64,000 bases of DNA, from positions 1 to 64,000 of the forward strand of contig DYJC01000022.1 of the NCBI GenBank assembly GCA_020723305.1, in the 5' to 3' direction. Positions 5,557-14,575 of this stretch are shown one piece after another (positions within the stretch are counted from its first letter, which is position 1; each line of letters opens with the position of its first letter). The stretch is from Desulfosudis oleivorans. GTDB lineage: Bacteria > Desulfobacterota > Desulfobacteria > Desulfobacterales > SURF-7. The notes beneath the pieces are model-generated. The model searched no databases, was not told the origin of the DNA, and saw only the letters and a list, made by a program, of their open reading frames with translations. Both the position numbers and the translations under genes were made by a program.

Positions 5557-6315
5557 TCAGGCCAGCATACCCCCGTCACAGATGATGCAGGTTCCGGTTG
5601 TGTAGGAGGAAAGATCCGACACAAGATAGAGCACCGCTCCTACCATCTCAGCTGGGCTGGCTTCCCGTCCCATGGGTATCTGCTGAAGCACATAATTGAA
5701 TATATCCTGATTGTCCATGATGGCCCTTGAAAAATCCGTTCTGGTAAAACCCGGAAGCAACGCATTGACACGGATTTTTTTAGAGGCCAGTTCTTTTGCA
5801 TATGCCTGGGTCATGGAAATAAGCCCGGTTTTTGTGATGGAATAGATGCCTTGCAATGAAGCCGGACGGACACCATTGACAGAGGAAACATTGACAATGG
5901 CGCCGGAGCCCGACGCCATCATCAAGGGCACTGCCTGCTGAATCATGAAGAACGGGCCTTTCAAATTCACGGCGAATGTTTTATCCCATGCCCATTCTTC
6001 CGCTGTCAGCATTTCGCCCAAATAGGGATTGGCGGCAGCATTGTTGACCAGAATATCCAATTTTCCAAAATCTGATTTTACCTGCTCAAACAGTTTTCCA
6101 ATCTGATCCAGTTGGCCCATGTTGCAGGCGATGATTGTTGCGTTACCGCCTTTTTCCTTGATCTTTCCGGCAACGGCCTGAAGACCATCGATCTTCCTGC
6201 TGACCAGGATGCAGTGGGCACCGCATTCGGCAAGCGCCAGTGCAATCGCTTCACCAATACCCCGGCTTGCACCGGTGATTAACGCGACTTTATCCTGCAA
6301 TGAAATGTTGATCAT
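5557..6315 (-). CDS. SDR family NAD(P)-dependent oxidoreductase
   Basis: A 252-residue classical short-chain dehydrogenase/reductase. The GASRGIG cofactor loop is at residues 15-21, NNAAANP near 91-97, the catalytic Ser at 144-145 and the YSITK pair at Tyr158/Lys162. A PGFTRTDF segment follows, as usual. SDRs of this size oxidise or reduce hydroxyl/keto groups; in this context a hydroxyacyl-CoA or its keto product is plausible. It is the last gene of the minus-strand operon, separated from the kinase gene by a palindromic element. A GGAGGAG ribosome site precedes the ATG. Confidence 0.92.
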   Translation of the reverse strand: MINISLQDKVALITGASRGIGEAIALALAECGAHCILVSRKIDGLQAVAGKIKEKGGNATIIACNMGQLDQIGKLFEQVKSDFGKLDILVNNAAANPYLGEMLTAEEWAWDKTFAVNLKGPFFMIQQAVPLMMASGSGAIVNVSSVNGVRPASLQGIYSITKTGLISMTQAYAKELASKKIRVNALLPGFTRTDFSRAIMDNQDIFNYVLQQIPMGREASPAEMVGAVLYLVSDLSSYTTGTCIICDGGMLA

Positions 6316-6340
6316 AATTGATACTCCTCCTTGTAGAAGT

Positions 6341-6486
6341 CAGGGTAACCGCGTTTAAATTTTTTTTTATTATTCCCCCCTTGAGGGGGGCATGGGGGGT
6401 GTTTATCGTATTTTTTTTTGGAAAAATATCGTATTTACACCCCCCCTTACCCCCCTCAAGGGGGGATTTTTTGAACGGTTACCCTG
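6341..6486. repeat. Palindromic C/G-tract element between SDR and kinase genes
   Basis: A 146-bp nested inverted repeat. Outer arms CAGGGTAACCG (6341-6351) and CGGTTACCCTG (6476-6486) enclose two smaller hairpins, CCCCCCTTGAGGGGGG (6375-6390) and CCCCCCTCAAGGGGGG (6450-6465), which are themselves arranged as an inverted pair around an AT-rich centre. The shape resembles a non-autonomous MITE or large REP-type unit. It sits inside an operon and could form a strong RNA hairpin affecting expression of the SDR gene. Confidence 0.7.
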
Positions 6487-6498
6487 TGTCGTTAACGT

Positions 6499-7566
6499 TT
6501 ATAAGTCTGACTTCTCAATCACTTTCATGGCAACTTTTTCCAGAATCATCACTGCACCGATCAACATGGCAAACCTTTTGTCCTTGGTCTGCCCGTGAAA
6601 GTAGCGGTAGTAAATCTGCTGCGCAATCCCGGCCAGCTTGAACAGGCCGAAGCAGAAATAGTAATCCATGGATTCGATCTTTCTTCCCGATACCTGTATG
6701 TAATAATCCACCAGCTCCTTCCGGGTCATCATTCCCGCTTCCGTGGTCGGCAAAAGCCGCATCAACTGGTGTTCTTCCGAATCGTTCCGGTCAATCCAGT
6801 ATGCCAGCGACCCACCCAGATCCATCAGCGGGTCACCGATGGTTGCCATTTCCCAATCCAGGATACCTGAAATCTCCCTGAGATTGGCAGGATTCAGTAC
6901 TACATTGTCCAGCTTGTAGTCATTGTGGATAATTCCAGGGCTGTCGGTTTCTTTCGGCATTTTATCATGAAGCCATCCCATAACTTTTTCAAAATCCGGA
7001 GCATCGCTTGTCCGGGCATCCCGGTACCGGGCGCTCCACCCCTCAACCTGCCGCCGAATATACCCTTCGGGTTTTCCCAGTCCATCCAGTCCGATCTTCT
7101 TATAATCAATGGTGTGAAGCGTGTGCAGGGATTGGATCATGTTCTCACACAAACTTCCGGCAACTTCCGGAAGCAGCACCAGATCTTTGGGAAGATTTTT
7201 CCGCAGAATGATTCCCTGAATCCGTTCCATGACATAAAAAGGGCATCCCATGATTTCCGGATCTTCGGTATACAGAAGCGGTTTGGGCGCCATCGGGAAT
7301 ATTGGATGCAGAGCGCGTAAAATCCGGTATTCCCGGTGCATGTCGTGAGCGGTCTTTGCTTTTTTCCCGAACGGCGGCCTCCGGAGAACCATCTCCTTAT
7401 CCCCTGCTTTCACCATATAGGTTAGATTGGAAAACCCGCTGGGAAACTGCCGGATGAGAAATTCTCCGTCATGGCAGCCAAGGGAATCTCTTATGTATAC
7501 TTCAACCTTGTGTGAATCCAGCTCCTCTCCTTCACGGATATTTACAGGCTCATCTATCTTTACCAT
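6499..7566 (-). CDS. APH-type kinase, LvaA/ACAD10-11 kinase-domain-like
   Basis: A 355-residue aminoglycoside-phosphotransferase-fold protein. The Brenner motif is HNDYKLDN with H214, D216 and N221 (Asn replacing the usual Gly after His), and the metal-binding DWEMATIGDP starts at D237. Members that cluster with acyl-CoA dehydrogenases phosphorylate 4-hydroxyacyl-CoAs rather than antibiotics (LvaA in Pseudomonas levulinate catabolism, and the kinase domains of animal ACAD10/11). Here it shares an operon with an ACAD10/11-type dehydrogenase, supporting that role by inference. The AGGAGATGAGAT ribosome site gives the ATG at 7566, three bases after the TetR gene stop. Confidence 0.9.
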   Translation of the reverse strand: MVKIDEPVNIREGEELDSHKVEVYIRDSLGCHDGEFLIRQFPSGFSNLTYMVKAGDKEMVLRRPPFGKKAKTAHDMHREYRILRALHPIFPMAPKPLLYTEDPEIMGCPFYVMERIQGIILRKNLPKDLVLLPEVAGSLCENMIQSLHTLHTIDYKKIGLDGLGKPEGYIRRQVEGWSARYRDARTSDAPDFEKVMGWLHDKMPKETDSPGIIHNDYKLDNVVLNPANLREISGILDWEMATIGDPLMDLGGSLAYWIDRNDSEEHQLMRLLPTTEAGMMTRKELVDYYIQVSGRKIESMDYYFCFGLFKLAGIAQQIYYRYFHGQTKDKRFAMLIGAVMILEKVAMKVIEKSDL

Positions 7567-7569
7567 ATC

Positions 7570-8250
7570 TCATCTCCTGAGGGTTTTTTCGATAAATTGA
7601 ATGATAAAATCAGCATATGCATCCACCGGTATCTTACGGCTTGTATACTTCCACCTTTTCAGATACCAGTCCTGAAGCAAGGGTTTGATAACCGAAGCGG
7701 TCATCGTGACATCATCGATTGAAAAAACTTCCTGCCGGTTTCCTTCTTCCAGAATGTCGATAAAAATCTGTTCGGTGGCCAGCTCGGAAGCGATTGCTTT
7801 TTTCTGCTCGGATTTCACCATGTACCGGGCTTCCATGAAAAAAAAGATAAACCACTGGGGCATGATCTCACTCAGATACAGGTGAACCCGTATGGCTGCC
7901 CTGAGTTTTTCTTCTGCTTTATCCGCTTCGTTAATGTATTTCTTCATGATGCCGCCGATAAACTGCTGACCCTGTTCCTGAATGATATTCAACAGGTCTT
8001 CTTTTGTTGAAAAATAGGAATAGAGGGCGCCCATGGATAGACCGGTTTCGCGGCACAAATCCCGCAGACTCATGGCGGAAAACCCTTTTTCACTGCTCAA
8101 CTTGAGAGCTGCATTGTAAATATTCATGAGATTCTTCACCGCCAGCCCTTCCTTCTTGATTTTAATGGAGTGGCTTTTCTCCTTGAAAATATTGCGGCAG
8201 ATCTCTTCCACGAAACCGGTTTGATGATTTTTGAAATCAGAAAACTTCAT
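7570..8250 (-). CDS. TetR/AcrR family transcriptional regulator
   Basis: A 226-residue TetR-family repressor. The helix-turn-helix region is at about residues 45-90, with FSAMSLRDLCRETGLSMGALYSYFSTKEDLL matching the family signature (split here only by position). The C-terminal ligand domain is unassigned but is like those of fatty-acid and acyl-CoA responsive regulators. An N-terminal extension of about 38 charged residues precedes the usual start. It lies inside the operon it probably controls, between the dehydrogenase and kinase genes. A candidate operator CGAGCGCTCG lies upstream of the operon's first gene. Confidence 0.92.
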   Translation of the reverse strand: MKFSDFKNHQTGFVEEICRNIFKEKSHSIKIKKEGLAVKNLMNIYNAALKLSSEKGFSAMSLRDLCRETGLSMGALYSYFSTKEDLLNIIQEQGQQFIGGIMKKYINEADKAEEKLRAAIRVHLYLSEIMPQWFIFFFMEARYMVKSEQKKAIASELATEQIFIDILEEGNRQEVFSIDDVTMTASVIKPLLQDWYLKRWKYTSRKIPVDAYADFIIQFIEKTLRR

Positions 8251-8281
8251 AGGGTTCTCTCTTCATAAAAATCTTTACAGG

Positions 8282-8402
8282 GAGCTAATTTCAAAACCAT
8301 TAAAAAACGTCACACCGGCGAAGTCGGTGCCCAGAAAAGAGCCGAAAATACTAGATTCTTGTTTTCGCCGGAACTACAACAACGGACTTTTGAAATTGGC
8401 TC
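8282..8402. repeat. Dispersed palindromic repeat, copy A
   Basis: A 121-bp unit beginning GAGCTAATTTCAAAA and ending TTTTGAAATTGGCTC, a 15-bp terminal inverted repeat with one mismatch. The interior has CACCGGCGAAGTCGGTG and TTCGCCGGAA segments. It starts 23 bases behind the acyl-CoA dehydrogenase stop codon, between two genes of one operon. Confidence 0.85.
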
Positions 8403-8424
8403 CAGGGTTTGTCTCCACAGGCTC

Positions 8425-9621
8425 CTATTTCTGATACTCGCCCAAAATCCGTTTCCCCAGCATGAGCCGGTGAACCTCATCCGCGCCGTCATAGATTCTT
8501 GCACCTCTTTCATGGCGATAGAAATAGGAAAGGATGGTGTCATCCGACATCCCAAGGCCACCGTGAACCTGCAATGCCCGGTCGATGATGGTCTGCATGG
8601 TGTTGGCAACGACAAATTTGATCATGGAAATATCGTTTCGCGCTTCGCTGGCCCCCACAGTTTCAATTCTCCAGGCAGCATAAAGGGTCATCAGCCGTGC
8701 AGCCTGGATTTCCGCAGCCGAATCCGCAACCCATGTCCGGATGGTCTGCTGTGTGGCAAGAGTTTTTCCATCCGGTGTGATCACCCGATAATTGGCACGC
8801 TTGCACATCAGCTCAAAAGAACGTTTACAGATCCCCAGCCAGCGCATGCAATGATGAATCCTTCCGGGTCCAAGGCGTTCCTGGGCAATGACAAATCCCT
8901 GCCCTTCCGCGCCAAGCAGATTTTTTTGGGGAACCCGGCAGGACTGATAGATGATTTCGCCATGGCTTGCATAATCACTTCCCTCATGACCCATTACCGG
9001 AATATTCCGTACCAGATTGAAACCCGGATTGTCGGTCGGAACAATAATCATGCTGGCATTCAGGTATCTTGGTGCATCCGGATTGGTGACGGCCATGACA
9101 ATGGCAAATTTTGAACCATCTGCAGAGCTTGTATACCATTTATGTCCATTGATCACATAGTCATCGCCATCTTTGACAGCCGTGGTTTCGAGCATCACCG
9201 GATTGGAACCCGGCATGTTCACCTCTGTCATGGAAAAACAGCTTCGGATATCTCCGGCCACCAGCGGCGCCAGATATTTCTCCTTCTGTTCCGGGGTTCC
9301 GTATTTATGAAGAATCTCAATATTGCCCGCATCCGGAGCCTGGCACCCGAAAATATAATGACCCAGAGGCGTCCGGCCCAATGCCTCGGATATCAGTGCA
9401 TGTTCCATGAGATCCAGTCCCATCCCGCCATATTCCTTGGGATGGTTCGGAGCCCAGAGCTCCATCTTCTTGACCATTTTCCGTTTTTCTTCAAACAGTT
9501 TCAGTCCATCCCGGAATTCCATTTTGGTGAAATGGGGTTCCAGCGGGATCAGCTCTTTTTCTACAAATTCATCGATCATTCCCAGAATAATTTTCATCTT
9601 TTCCGATATCTGAAAATCCAT
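8425..9621 (-). CDS. Acyl-CoA dehydrogenase, ACAD10/11 (LvaC) type
   Basis: A 398-residue flavoprotein of the acyl-CoA dehydrogenase fold. It has the FAD/substrate loop CFSMTEVNMPGSNP, the HKWYTSSADG strand and the QVHGGLGMSDDT helix. Near the C-terminus (residues 376-385) IYDGADEVHR replaces the usual IYEGT sequence; the DGxDEVH form is the hallmark of ACAD10/11 and their bacterial relatives such as LvaC, which rearrange phosphorylated 4-hydroxyacyl-CoAs. This supports a non-classical reaction rather than plain beta-oxidation. A good AGGAGG site precedes the ATG. The gene follows the phosphatase gene by 12 bases. Confidence 0.95.
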   Translation of the reverse strand: MDFQISEKMKIILGMIDEFVEKELIPLEPHFTKMEFRDGLKLFEEKRKMVKKMELWAPNHPKEYGGMGLDLMEHALISEALGRTPLGHYIFGCQAPDAGNIEILHKYGTPEQKEKYLAPLVAGDIRSCFSMTEVNMPGSNPVMLETTAVKDGDDYVINGHKWYTSSADGSKFAIVMAVTNPDAPRYLNASMIIVPTDNPGFNLVRNIPVMGHEGSDYASHGEIIYQSCRVPQKNLLGAEGQGFVIAQERLGPGRIHHCMRWLGICKRSFELMCKRANYRVITPDGKTLATQQTIRTWVADSAAEIQAARLMTLYAAWRIETVGASEARNDISMIKFVVANTMQTIIDRALQVHGGLGMSDDTILSYFYRHERGARIYDGADEVHRLMLGKRILGEYQK

Positions 9622-9633
9622 ACTACCTCCTGT

Positions 9634-10344
9634 TTATCGATAGGTTATCCATAATTCTTCTTTTTTTATTTCCAGATGTGCATGCTCATTGAACGACATC
9701 ATCATCATCCTGTCGGGAGTAAATTTGAAACGGGTCACGGAACTGTTGATGATCTGCCATCCCACCTGAATCGAAACCTCGTTTGAAAGGCAAAGCGCTT
9801 TCTGAATGGCTGCGGAAATCGGCCCGCCGGATGAAAAGACCGCAACTGTTTTTCCCTTTCCTTGAGCCTTCATGATCTCCTGTATTCCGTCTCTCACCCG
9901 GCTAGCGTAATCGTCCCATGAGATCAGACCCGGAGCCTGAACAGCGCCGGAGACCCATTTCAGGATGGCTCGTTCAAAAACTATCTGAAACGATCTTCTG
10001 CTGGTGAACATGCTGTCGACATCCCTTGAAAAATCCGGATTTTCCTCAATCAGCATGGGGATGGCCGTCCGCAGAACCGTTTCCGGATCATACTCGTTAA
10101 ACGCTTCGGATGAATTCAATTCCCGGCAGGGTTTCTTTTCCCCTGAAAATCCCTGGAAAAAATAATCCGCCGTGTCCAGATGCCGCTGCATGGTACCGCT
10201 GTAGCATTCATCAAAACCAATACCCAGATTCCGGAAATACTCTCCCAGTAGTCTGGATTGGGCGATTCCCAGTTCCGATAGCTGATCATAATTTGCCTGA
10301 CCAAACGAGGCCTGGCCGTGCCGGATCATAAAAAGTGTGCTCAT
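9634..10344 (-). CDS. Histidine phosphatase family protein (phosphoglycerate mutase fold)
   Basis: A 236-residue histidine phosphatase with the RHG motif at residues 8-10 (FMIRHGQASFG) and a second catalytic region in VFSSGGPISAAIQ, where the usual second His is replaced by Ser-Gly (typical proteins read SHGG). An in-frame ATG exists at 10365, but AGAAGGA sits correctly before the ATG at 10344. As the first gene of the dehydrogenase-kinase operon it may hydrolyse a phosphorylated intermediate or by-product made by the APH-type kinase. That role is inference from gene order. Confidence 0.88.
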   Translation of the reverse strand: MSTLFMIRHGQASFGQANYDQLSELGIAQSRLLGEYFRNLGIGFDECYSGTMQRHLDTADYFFQGFSGEKKPCRELNSSEAFNEYDPETVLRTAIPMLIEENPDFSRDVDSMFTSRRSFQIVFERAILKWVSGAVQAPGLISWDDYASRVRDGIQEIMKAQGKGKTVAVFSSGGPISAAIQKALCLSNEVSIQVGWQIINSSVTRFKFTPDRMMMMSFNEHAHLEIKKEELWITYR

Positions 10345-10398
10345 TATTATCCTTCTTTTCACCAATTGTGATTGACAGCCTACCGGATTTTAAAAAAA

Positions 10399-10453: not shown

Positions 10454-10488
10454 AAAAAAAGGCAACCGGTAATTCACCGGTTGCCTTT
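10454..10488 (-). terminator. Intrinsic terminator behind aminotransferase gene
   Basis: GGCAACCGGT (10461-10470) and ACCGGTTGCC (10476-10485) form a perfect 10-bp stem with a 5-base loop. The A-tract at 10454-10460 becomes a U-run on the minus strand, so this ends the transcript of the lysine-less aminotransferase gene. Confidence 0.85.
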
Positions 10489-10579: not shown

Positions 10580-11902
10580 CTAATCTGCATTTATGATAGA
10601 TCGTAAAGCCCTCTCTATTCCTGCAACAATTTCATCTACATCCTGATCCGTCAGGATAAGAGGCGGCCGGATGATGACGCTATTTTTGGCAACTTCTCCG
10701 GTTTTTACCATAATTCCATGATTCATCAGACTCCGACAGAATTTTGCCGCCCCTTCCGCATCTTCCAAACGCAATGCCAGAAGCAATCCAATGCCATTCA
10801 CGGATATGATTTTCGAATTTGAAGCAACAATCGCTTCCAGTTTTTTCTTGAGCTTCTCACCCTGTCTTCCGGCATTTTCCCAGGGTCTGGTCTGTTCATA
10901 CACATCCAAAGCTGCTGAAGCGACGCGGCAACCCACATCATGTCCGCCAAATGTCAGCAGATGAATCAAAGGGTGAACATCGAAAAAATTTTTGATATCG
11001 CTTGTAAATATCATCGCCCCCATAGGAAACAAACCGCCGCTCAATGCTTCACCGATCAGCATAATATGGGGTAATACGCCGAAATAATCTGCTGCAAACT
11101 TTTCCCCGGTGCGTCCGAACCCGGTCTGTGTTTCATCAAAAATAAGAAGCGCACCAGCCCTGTCACAGGCAAGGCGCAATTCCTGAAGATATGTTTTATC
11201 GACAGTACGGCAATTATTTTCAACCTGGATAGGTTCCAGGATGACGGCTGCTGTCCGTTTTGTGATGGCCTTTCGTGCTGCACGGATGTCATTAAACAAT
11301 ATCGTCTTGCAGTCCGGAATCAATGACCCGAAATATTTTTTATCCGATCGTTCAGACAGAGTCATGGCAAACCCGGTCTGACCATACCAGCCTCCGTCTA
11401 CCGTGATCAATTCGGATCGCCCCGTATATCCGCGGGCAAGCTTGCAGGCGGCCTCCATCGCTTCTCCCCTTACTACGGTGTACAACACACAATCCAGTGT
11501 ATGGGGAGTAAACCTGGCAAGCTTTTCAGCCAGTTCCGCTTTTTCTCTGGAAATCATGACAAAATTTCCCTGATCCGTTTCCTTTATGGCGCGTTTCAAG
11601 GCTTTGACAATGGACGGATTTTTCCTTCCCAGATTATAGGTTCCGGCGGAACAATAACAGTCCAGATACGCATTCCCATCCACATCAAAGATCCGCATGC
11701 CCTCACGCCTGCTCTCCACCCTATCCATTCCCCTGGCTTTCAGATTTTGCACAAACCCTTTCCCGAATATTTTTTCAGCATCCGCTATAAGCCTGCTGGA
11801 TTGGTTCTCGACCCTGTTTATACTTTCCGGTTTATTCCGTAGTGTTTCTATCGCACTATTTTCTTCTACAAGGATAATGTTCTTTTGCTGCAAAGTTGCC
11901 AT
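10580..11902 (-). CDS. Class III aminotransferase homologue lacking the PLP lysine
   Basis: A 440-residue class III aminotransferase-fold protein that looks catalytically altered. The segment that normally carries the PLP Schiff-base lysine (xxxAKxxGGG) reads LIGEALSGG, with Glu285 in the lysine position; the codon is GAA. The phosphate-binding GTGADA motif is replaced by VVRGEAM, the YHG ring-stacking motif by WYG, and EPIQGEGG by EPIQVENN. Yet FDETQTGFGRTG with the PLP-nitrogen Asp is kept, the fold is full length and the frame intact, so selection has maintained it. It lies downstream of an ordinary paralogue (12058-13440). A heterodimer with that paralogue, as in serine palmitoyltransferase, is my inference. 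Confidence 0.9.
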   Translation of the reverse strand: MATLQQKNIILVEENSAIETLRNKPESINRVENQSSRLIADAEKIFGKGFVQNLKARGMDRVESRREGMRIFDVDGNAYLDCYCSAGTYNLGRKNPSIVKALKRAIKETDQGNFVMISREKAELAEKLARFTPHTLDCVLYTVVRGEAMEAACKLARGYTGRSELITVDGGWYGQTGFAMTLSERSDKKYFGSLIPDCKTILFNDIRAARKAITKRTAAVILEPIQVENNCRTVDKTYLQELRLACDRAGALLIFDETQTGFGRTGEKFAADYFGVLPHIMLIGEALSGGLFPMGAMIFTSDIKNFFDVHPLIHLLTFGGHDVGCRVASAALDVYEQTRPWENAGRQGEKLKKKLEAIVASNSKIISVNGIGLLLALRLEDAEGAAKFCRSLMNHGIMVKTGEVAKNSVIIRPPLILTDQDVDEIVAGIERALRSIINAD

Positions 11903-11933
11903 CTCCCCTCCTTCTTCGTTTTCACATTCGGTT

Positions 11934-12055
11934 GAGCCAATTTCAAAAGTCTCTTGTTGTAGTTCCGGCGAAAACTTAAATCCAGTATTTTCGGCTCTTT
12001 TCTGAGCGCTGACTTTCGCCGGTGTGACGCTTTATAATCGTTTTTAAATTGGCTC
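11934..12055. repeat. Dispersed palindromic repeat, copy B
   Basis: A 122-bp copy of the same family as at 8282, in the opposite orientation (GTTCCGGCGAAAAC at the left, TTTCGCCGGTGTGACG at the right). It begins GAGCCAATTTCAAAA and ends TTTTTAAATTGGCTC. It lies two bases past the stop codon of the upstream aminotransferase gene and separates the two paralogues. Confidence 0.85.
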
Positions 12056-12057
12056 GG

Positions 12058-13440
12058 TTAATTCCAGAATGCCAATTTTCGTAACCAGACATTCACTGTG
12101 ATTAAAATATCACCTTTATTCAGCTTTTCCCGGATAAACGGTATTGTTGAAAGGGGGCTCAGCAATAGCAAGTACAGCCTCATGAATTTTATTGCTTTCC
12201 GGATAATCTCCAACGCTTCATCAATATCTTTTTCGTTTGCCGCTGTGGGAAGCTGGAAACGCATGACCTGGGGGGCATTACCGGAATAGGCGGCAAACAT
12301 GCCATGCGTTGCCAGACATTCGGCCATCAGGATTCCCATGAATTCGTGTTTGTACTCCACACCCACCATCATGCCCCGGCCGCGGACTTCCCAGATGATG
12401 TCGGAATTTTCATTTCCCAGATGCCGGAGGCCTTCCTGAAACCTTGCGCCCATCCTTTCGACATTCTCCCAAATTTTATGATCAACAATGTAATCAATAA
12501 CCGAACTGGATACGATACAGCCCAGATCTGAACCACCTCCCAAAGAGGAGTGAAATTCAGGATTCTGGTCGACAAAACCAGTCAACACCCGGCTATCCCG
12601 GTATAGAACTGCGGCATTTGGGTACAGGCCACCGCCAAATGATTTTGCAATAACCATGATATCCGGTACAATCCCGGAATGTTCCGATGCCCAAAGTTTG
12701 CCGGTCCGGCCGAATCCGGTCTGGATCTCATCAAAAATCAGCATGATCCCATACCGGTCACATACTTCTCTCAAGCCTTTAAGATATTCGTCTGTTGCCA
12801 CGTGTATTCCGCCTTCTCCTTGAATCGGTTCCAGAATAATGGCTGCCGTGTGTTCGGAAACCATCTGCTGAATTGCATTGAGATCACCAAATGGAGCAAA
12901 CCGAAAGCCCGGCATCAACGGTTGAAACAACTCCTTATAATAATCCTTACCGTTTGCTGACAGGCTCATCCCGGAGTGACCGTGATAGGCTTTGATCATT
13001 GAAAAAATTTCATTACGGCCGGTGGCGCCCTTTGCCAGTTTGAGTGCTCCTTCAATAGCATCGGCTCCGGTTCCGCAAAGCAATACGCGATTTAAATCAC
13101 CCGGTGCGATAGATACAATTTTTTTAGCCAACTCAATTTTTGGAGCGGACAACATACCATATGTACCCATGTCATAATCATCCAGGGCATTTTCCAATGC
13201 CTCAATTACTTGCGGATTACGACGCCCGACATTAAAGCATCCGGCTGATGAAAACCCATCGATATAGGTCCGGCCGGATCTGCTTTCACGAAAACGGATG
13301 CCGTTGCGTTCGCCTTCCAGAATATCCAGATGTCCCCCTGAGAGATAGCGGATCTGACCCTTTGATATGTGTTTGCCGAATAAATGAAATATCTCTTTCT
13401 CTTTTTTCCTTGAAAGGTTTTGTGTTCCCGCGGATTGCAT
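12058..13440 (-). CDS. Class III PLP-dependent aminotransferase
   Basis: A 460-residue class III aminotransferase with the full active-site set: GTGADA phosphate loop (123-128), AYHGH (151-155), FDEIQTGFGRTG with the PLP Asp, and IMVIAKSFGGG with Lys266 as the Schiff-base lysine. Homologues transfer amino groups from omega-amino acids or amines to pyruvate or 2-oxoglutarate. An adjacent alanine dehydrogenase suggests pyruvate as acceptor. The C-terminus carries about 40 extra residues (from about 420) reaching to within two bases of a palindromic repeat, so the original stop may have been displaced by repeat insertion. GAGGAAATCAT precedes the ATG. Confidence 0.92.
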   Translation of the reverse strand: MQSAGTQNLSRKKEKEIFHLFGKHISKGQIRYLSGGHLDILEGERNGIRFRESRSGRTYIDGFSSAGCFNVGRRNPQVIEALENALDDYDMGTYGMLSAPKIELAKKIVSIAPGDLNRVLLCGTGADAIEGALKLAKGATGRNEIFSMIKAYHGHSGMSLSANGKDYYKELFQPLMPGFRFAPFGDLNAIQQMVSEHTAAIILEPIQGEGGIHVATDEYLKGLREVCDRYGIMLIFDEIQTGFGRTGKLWASEHSGIVPDIMVIAKSFGGGLYPNAAVLYRDSRVLTGFVDQNPEFHSSLGGGSDLGCIVSSSVIDYIVDHKIWENVERMGARFQEGLRHLGNENSDIIWEVRGRGMMVGVEYKHEFMGILMAECLATHGMFAAYSGNAPQVMRFQLPTAANEKDIDEALEIIRKAIKFMRLYLLLLSPLSTIPFIREKLNKGDILITVNVWLRKLAFWN

Positions 13441-13465: not shown

Positions 13466-14575
13466 TTACGCGTTAAAAAACCGGCAGTCCTTTATCTGAA
13501 GCGACTCGGCGACATTGCCATTCATCAGTTGTCCGTCAAAGACATTGAGACCTCTGGCAAGAGGAATATTCTTCTTGAGAGCCCTTTCATACCCTTTGTC
13601 TGCCAGCTCCAGGGCAAAAGGCAGTGTAGCATTGGTAAGTGCATATGTAGAAGTAACCGGAACAGCGCCAGGCATGTTGGTTACGCAATAATGAACGACA
13701 TTGTTTTCCACATAGGTCGGACAATCATGGGTTGTTGGCCTGCTGGTGTCTGCACAACCTCCCTGGTCGATTGCTATGTCGACAAAGGCCGCCCCGGCTT
13801 TCATGCCTGAAAGGATTTCCCGATTGATCAGTTTCGGAGCTTTCGCACCTGGGATCAAAACCGATCCAATGACCAGATCTGCATTGGAAACACTCTCTTC
13901 AATATTAGCAGGATTGGACATCATGGTGACAATCCGTGAATGGAAAATATCCTCAATATAACGCAGACGGTTCAAATCAATATCCAGAATCGTAACCCTT
14001 GCACCCATTCCCACGGCAAGGTGTGCTGCATTCAGGCCCGATATCCCGCCACCGATAATGGTTACCTGTGCCGGAGGTACTCCCGGAACGCCTGACAGCA
14101 GCAGTCCGCGTCCATGATTTTTGGATTCAAGACAAAAGCATCCCATCTGTACTGCCAGGCGTCCGGCCACTTCACTCATCGGGGCAAGCAGGGGAAGGCT
14201 TCCGTCATCCTGCTGAACCGTCTCATAGGCAATACCGATAACCTTTTTTTCCAGCAATTTCTGAGTAAGATCTCTATCGGCCGCAAGATGAAGATAGGTA
14301 AAAAGTATTTGACCGGGCTTCATTCTTTCAAATTCCGGTGTTACCGGCTCTTTTACCTTGATGATCATCTCCGCTTCATACCAGACATCATCTGCGGTCG
14401 ATAAAATGATCGCTCCTGCGCTTTGAAAAGCTTCATCTGATATGCCTGAACCTGAACCTGCTCCATTTTCTACATAAACCTTGTGGCCTTTGGCAACGAA
14501 AGCCCTGACACCTGCCGGTGTGACAGCCACCCGTTTTTCCATCGTCTTGATCTCTTTTGGTATTCCAATTTTCAT
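13466..14575 (-). CDS. ald: Alanine dehydrogenase
   Basis: A 369-residue protein matching alanine dehydrogenase in length and key residues: Arg15 (KRVAVTP), Lys75 (KVKEP), His96 (YLHLAAD), the NAD loop GGGISG at 175-180, and Asp270 in DIAIDQGG. It interconverts L-alanine and pyruvate plus ammonia with NAD(H) in the cytoplasm. Next to a pyruvate-type aminotransferase it would recycle alanine to pyruvate, giving net oxidative deamination of the donor amine. It is the first gene of a minus-strand unit with the two aminotransferases. Two palindromic sites upstream probably control it. Confidence 0.97.

Follow-up and report, generated by a model that had tools for sequence, protein, structure and literature searches.

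The K and E genes of the window

The window analysed here is a 64,000-nucleotide stretch of Desulfosudis oleivorans DNA. Two neighbouring genes on its minus strand encode members of the class III aminotransferase family: K (positions 12058-13440, an ORF of 460 aa) carries the PLP lysine, and its downstream paralogue E (10580-11902, 440 aa) has Glu285 in place of this lysine. The preliminary description of this DNA had proposed a tandem pair with an intact downstream member bearing Glu285 at the lysine site, and both ORFs were indeed found at these positions. K and E exceed the gathering score of Pfam PF00202 (Aminotran_3; 289.8 and 253.6 bits, respectively, cut-off 30.5), with no further Pfam match for either at an E-value of 0.001, and are 34% identical over 396 columns. 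The Schiff-base motif of K, with Lys266 (codon AAA, 12643-12645, minus strand), is DIMVIAKSFGGG, whereas E carries Glu285 (codon GAA, 11048-11050, minus strand) at the equivalent site, HIMLIGEALSGG. The phosphate loop reads CGTGADA in K versus VVRGEA in E, and the aromatic ring-stacking motif AYHGH versus GWYGQ, in agreement with the alterations of E described previously. Neither protein reached the curated cut-off (612) of the putrescine aminotransferase equivalog NF008570 (K 312.3 bits, E 232 bits), and no serine palmitoyltransferase (SPT) or alpha-oxoamine synthase name was present among the best 25 of 69 NCBIfam families for K or E.

AlphaFold2 models of the single chains have a mean pLDDT of 87.6 and a pTM of 0.86 for E, and a pLDDT of 82.8 and a pTM of 0.85 for K; residues 311-320 of E, the loop discussed below as acting in trans, reach a pLDDT of only 61. 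The E model aligns to 1vef_A with a VIA-align Z of 53.0 (rmsd 1.7 over 385 residues) and to 4uoy_A with a Z of 52.7, and the K model to 4uox_C with a Z of 47.3 (rmsd 2.9 over 419). The class III fold is thus intact in both predicted chains. K ends in a C-terminal extension of ~40 residues with hydrophobic stretches (residues ~420-460, window 12058-12180) that is absent from the single-gene relatives compared and may touch a membrane or the partner. Frameshift damage was considered as an explanation for this tail and rejected, given its conservation between the window and loci L028 and L050 and the presence of a comparable tail in 31/31 K of the first set.

Directly upstream of K lies an alanine dehydrogenase gene (13466-14575, minus strand; TIGR00518, 534 bits, cut-off 391.85), which we infer is probably in the same transcript as K; its product would convert alanine to pyruvate and back. 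A terminator-like hairpin of 14 pairs with a T-rich tail (10458-10488, minus strand) is located ~90 bases past the E stop codon and possibly marks the end of the transcription unit; this is a pattern match only, and eight such sites occur in the stretch versus 4.8 expected. Further downstream, positions 5557-10365 encode an SDR, an APH-type kinase, a TetR regulator, an acyl-CoA dehydrogenase and a histidine phosphatase, a cluster that presumably resembles 4-hydroxyacyl-CoA breakdown sets. Without the SDR, the same cluster also adjoins E in genome G002 (locus L056), where the contig ends.

The spacer between K and E measures 155 bp and holds a copy (11932-12050, no strand assigned) of a dispersed intergenic repeat of ~120 bp. 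At least 40 matches, including the spacer copy, were found in the organism's own genome when 40 of 257 candidates were scored, the 39 others matching at 91-97%. A similar stretch seemingly lies near 8310-8430, as judged from ORF translations only.

Relatives of E and their gene context

Relatives of E were collected by similarity to E, without using the Glu as a criterion. Sources were whole-genome samples of relatives, of the order and of the phylum, a named genome collection, and the phylum of a Spirochaetes record; the named collection was queried with two peptide patterns that avoid the Glu and Thr sites. After removal of duplicate records, the set contained 46 E sequences (that of the window plus 21, 11 and 13 from successive samples), the other 45 being 46-89% identical to window E. 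Titles of the records name Desulfobacteraceae and other deltaproteobacteria (including Desulfoluna spongiiphila and D. butyratoxydans), two Spirochaetes, one Hydrogenedentota and one Thermoleophilia MAG, and the MAG labels may be wrong.

The residue counts given below cover these 46 E, 45 K and 33 lysine-bearing relatives. Left outside the counts are 16 of the 31 loci from the named collection (L065-L080, 28-35% identity), and the relatives exclude the truncated L007 and L034. The K of L052 spans two overlapping ORFs, possibly through a frameshift or an assembly error, and its longer piece was taken. Pyrrolysine at the Glu site was considered and rejected: a TAG was reported inside the match in G006, but the extracted E frame of this genome is open (454 aa) and has Glu there. 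The PylS N-terminal family TIGR03912 was not found in the window's own genome, to which that search was limited (G006 was not searched).

K lies directly beside and upstream of E at 44 of the 46 loci, so that the search for orthologous adjacent pairs suggested by the preliminary description met with success. At the remaining two, L051 and L056, the locus starts at a contig end. In G002, the genome of L056, K was found on a separate contig, likewise at its end (L163), where it adjoins alanine dehydrogenase and an amidase as in the window. In 39 of the 40 other pairs whose spacing was measured (using longest-ORF starts), K and E overlap or are separated by no more than 40 bp. Of 389 genomes sampled across the order, 15 contain K (E-value 1e-157 or better), and each of these also has E. 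E occurs in 16 of the 389, and the single genome without K (G150) has its E at a contig end. Six more of these genomes give weaker K matches (1e-134 to 1e-127) to the undivided kind of enzyme, with the Lys and the Thr in one chain. Three of them (G011, G014 and G025) are within the 33 relatives; the others (G122, G215 and G226) are not, and all three have both Lys and Thr.

The neighbours of the pairs vary, and include alanine dehydrogenase, TetR, Amidohydro_2 or Amidohydro_3, zinc alcohol dehydrogenase and molybdopterin oxidoreductases. A relative of the alanine dehydrogenase (at least 50% identity) is present in the fetched stretch of 16/46 pairs, counting the window and the K contig of G002; many stretches are short. 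Its presence upstream of K in the window and at these pairs makes alanine/pyruvate the likely amino pair of K-E, although both substrate and activity are inferred. At L127 (genome G418), a single aminotransferase with Lys and Thr in one chain, 46% identical to K, lies beside a TetR gene (46% identical to that of L050) and an alanine dehydrogenase gene (69% identical to that of the window).

A different tandem class III pair, with the PLP lysine in both members, was seen at L029 (8769-11715), L030 (6321-9332) and L031 (7632-10781). One member of these pairs has Ser for the trans Thr, and a conserved transporter-like gene lies alongside, as judged by sequence inspection only.

Distribution of active-site residues between K and E

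Escherichia coli YgjG is a class III enzyme from which cis and trans residues can be mapped. Its description (PMC4244111) has Lys300 forming the Schiff base with PLP, Phe180 stacking on the ring, and the PLP phosphate contacted by Thr151 and Gly150 as well as, from the second subunit, by Thr332*; the same second subunit contributes Phe327*, which borders the site entrance. A review in which class numbering differs gives T297 of GabT the same trans role and lists it among ~90% conserved residues (PMC9309667). The spacing from the Lys to the Thr position is 32 residues both in YgjG and in E (285 to 317). Window E has kept the trans loop, HPLIHLLTFGG, with Thr317 (codon ACA, 10952-10954, minus strand) equivalent to YgjG Thr332*, and has Arg145 in its phosphate loop. 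Window K has an intact phosphate loop, Tyr152-His153 and Arg394, which aligns with YgjG Arg426, and carries Leu300 (codon at 12541-12543, minus strand) in place of the trans Thr.

The same division is seen throughout the set. At the Schiff-base position, Glu is found in 46/46 E and Lys in 45/45 K and 33/33 relatives; the phosphate-loop position is Arg in all 45 E covered and Gly in 45/45 K and 33/33 relatives. The trans position is Thr in 46/46 E but in only 1/45 K, the other K having Ser (6) or, in the remaining 38, His, Tyr, Leu, Ile, Phe, Met or Cys. Since the 33 lysine-bearing relatives have Thr (28) or Ser (5) here, all of them, L127 included, combine Lys with Thr/Ser in one chain. The following residue is Phe in 46/46 E, 0/45 K and 31/33 relatives, and several E residues around Thr317 are invariant. 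At the rim position, five residues before the Thr as Phe327* is to Thr332* in YgjG, all 46 E have Leu or Met, and K is mixed and often acidic (D12 L9 E8 A4 F4 W3 T2, others). These counts show that each chain is without what its partner supplies.

A comparison of columns with at least 80% conservation among the 28 first-set relatives found residues lost only in E, among them (K numbering) the phosphate-loop Gly, Tyr152, His153, Lys266, Arg353, Tyr385 and Asn388, and residues lost only in K (E numbering), namely Glu147, Thr317, Phe318 and Pro413. The ring-stacking position of E is variable (W, C, Y, L, R, S), the YHG motif retains its His in 3/45 E, and the equivalent of K Arg353 is present in 3/46 and that of Arg394 in none. 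Asp256 of E, at the position whose Asp usually contacts the nitrogen of PLP, is found in 46/46 and Gln259 in 44/46; 45/46 E have an Arg near the lost carboxylate-Arg (Arg394) position. The Asp and this Arg could mean that E still binds something, a point against the proposal made below.

The pattern was first noted on 33 E and 31 K. In the 13 further pairs fetched afterwards from the phylum of the Spirochaetes record, Glu and Thr are present in 13/13 E and Lys in 13/13 K, with Thr in 0/13 K (2 Ser). From the same phylum sample, L161, L177, L178 and L179, and L162 from the same genome as one of these, have Lys and Thr and no adjoining E. The sole K with Thr at the trans position is that of L061. 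The L061 record is labelled Thermoleophilia, and its K (5842-8055) is 737 aa long, with a long C-terminal addition that has no Pfam match.

Judged by these residues, E fails on the Schiff-base lysine (0/46), which K has (45/45), and E has the trans Thr/Ser (Thr 46/46), which most K lack (Thr 1, Ser 6, neither 38, of 45). E belongs to PF00202 by descent; taken alone, its sequence is not that of a class III aminotransferase enzyme.

Selection and phylogeny

Nine pairwise comparisons of E gave dN/dS values of 0.12-0.25, and eight of K gave 0.07-0.29; all 46 E frames are open, that of L056 being cut off at the contig end. These sequence-based estimates indicate purifying selection on both genes and, like the mirrored trees described next, support a function. 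The preliminary description had asked whether the Glu is conserved in relatives or accompanied by decay; it is conserved in all 46 E, without decay elsewhere.

E and K each form one clade in two trees. The distances among 31 E correlate with those among the 31 K (r=0.90, with 0/5000 permutations as high), which is partly due to shared descent in an operon and does not require contact. The median E/K distance ratio is 1.52, E thus changing ~1.5 times faster. The full tree, computed without the partial E of L056, places E next to another lysine-bearing group and not next to K; when the longest outgroup branches are removed, a second tree groups K with L127-type enzymes. A branch with E and K together on one side was not rejected by an AU test (p 0.437). 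Hence the sisterhood of E and K is neither shown nor excluded by these trees, and the ancestor among the relatives remains unsettled. The L127 locus possibly shows, in an extant genome, the arrangement that preceded the split, direct ancestry not being settled by the trees.

A proposed composite active site

We propose that K and E form an obligate class III heterodimer with one working composite site, and put the probability of this reading at about 0.83. Dimerisation, the number of PLP bound, activity, substrate and route of origin are all inferred. K would contribute the lysine for the Schiff base, the phosphate loop, the Tyr that stacks on the ring and Arg394, which aligns with substrate-side Arg426 in YgjG; E would add, across the dimer interface, the phosphate-liganding Thr317 and a hydrophobic rim of the site. 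The symmetry-related second site would be doubly dead, with Glu285 and Arg145 of E replacing Lys and Gly and with K lacking the Thr. As K is without the trans Thr that E keeps, the ancestral site would be restored in K-E but not in K-K or E-E. The pair may go back to a homodimeric enzyme whose gene was duplicated, the two copies then undergoing complementary losses. Alanine/pyruvate would probably be the partner in amino-group exchange, recycled through the alanine dehydrogenase encoded next to K. The idea of a catalytic/non-catalytic heterodimer, raised in the preliminary description, is consequently supported by the sequences but unproven. The trans argument leans mainly on one well-documented residue and its neighbours in a single loop.

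The invariant Arg of the E phosphate loop and the Glu at the lysine position suggest, by inference, either a pocket-filling salt bridge or a new anion or effector site. We can offer only tentatively the elaboration in which complementary loss led to the heterodimer and the dead site was rebuilt around Arg145-Glu285-Asp256 as an effector pocket controlling the working site. The invariance of Glu285, Arg145 and Asp256 wherever covered, from which the dead pocket seems to do something, can also be taken to mean that E is a separate pseudoenzyme, a regulator or a ligand or protein binder, beside an active K homodimer with no shared active site. The K-E identity of just 34% fits such an arrangement, and adjacency and mirrored trees are equally compatible with operon co-inheritance without K-E contact. 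K could remain active with one phosphate ligand fewer, and PLP might still be bound by some K homodimers, given the Thr in the K of L061 and the Ser in six K (the 33 relatives include five with Ser). We nevertheless consider this arrangement unlikely: the Thr is lost in 44/45 K and kept in every E, along with several invariant residues around it, and there is no evident reason for a regulator to keep the trans-acting loop yet lose the cis residues, or for a homodimeric K to lose the trans Thr.

Lysine-free dehydratases of the PLP fold exist and provide a model for E as an enzyme that uses a cofactor but needs no Schiff-base lysine, acting for instance with PMP or on an unusual substrate. Asp256 (46/46), Gln259 (44/46) and the intact class III fold of the E model (Z of 53.0 to 1vef_A) are in keeping with this, and use of PLP by E in another way had been put forward in the preliminary description. 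E retains neither the Gly of the phosphate loop nor Tyr-His nor the Arg that aligns with Arg426 of YgjG, which weakens such a role for E alone. With Arg replacing the Gly in all 45 E covered, a variable ring-stacking position, the YHG His in 3/45, the Arg353 equivalent in 3/46 and that of Arg394 in none, and with no E lacking a K except at two contig ends, we regard it as very improbable. The faster change of E (ratio 1.52) might alternatively reflect a decaying duplicate, a pseudogene in progress. This can be set aside almost entirely, considering the 46 open frames, the dN/dS of 0.12-0.25 in nine comparisons, and the recurrence of this Glu and Arg in records that carry the labels of several phyla.

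Relation to known systems

YgjG/PatA and acetylornithine aminotransferase share fold and family with K and E. Acetylornithine aminotransferase is an identical-subunit dimer with two complete sites. YgjG, the source of the residue map, is also described as such a dimer (PMC4244111). The heterodimer proposed for K-E can be compared with SPT, whose LCB1 and LCB2 are homologous subunits with the PLP lysine only in LCB2; one active site per heterodimer is given as a working hypothesis (PMC3794620). As in SPT, K and E are homologous, lysine-bearing and lysine-free, and are encoded together (44/46 loci). Unlike SPT, they represent another class and chemistry within fold type I, are bacterial and encoded by adjacent genes, and have each lost residues that the other keeps (the Thr in K, Lys and Gly in E), with undivided relatives still living. 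The two-subunit glycine decarboxylase P-protein, GcvPA/GcvPB, is a fold-type-I PLP enzyme of lysine-bearing and lysine-free paralogues that differs from K-E in family and reaction; no source on its subunit division was found in the open-access literature, among the matches listed. The L127-type enzyme, with one gene and both Lys and Thr in the same chain, is the undivided form.

No report of a heterodimeric class III aminotransferase was found in the open-access literature searched, among the matches listed, most subscription journals being outside this search. The mode of working proposed for K-E is known from a few other vitamin B6 enzymes, and we have not met the class III case in that literature.

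If the proposal is correct, K and E would constitute an obligate heterodimer among the class III aminotransferases, which are otherwise identical-subunit dimers in the papers cited. With undivided relatives still in existence, including one from a similar gene neighbourhood, the pair would be a natural case of duplication, degeneration and complementation within one active site, and the split would be reversible and testable residue by residue. Family searches name both K and E plain class III aminotransferases, yet each may be unable to function without the other, a caution for metabolic models and for the choice of transaminases from sequence.
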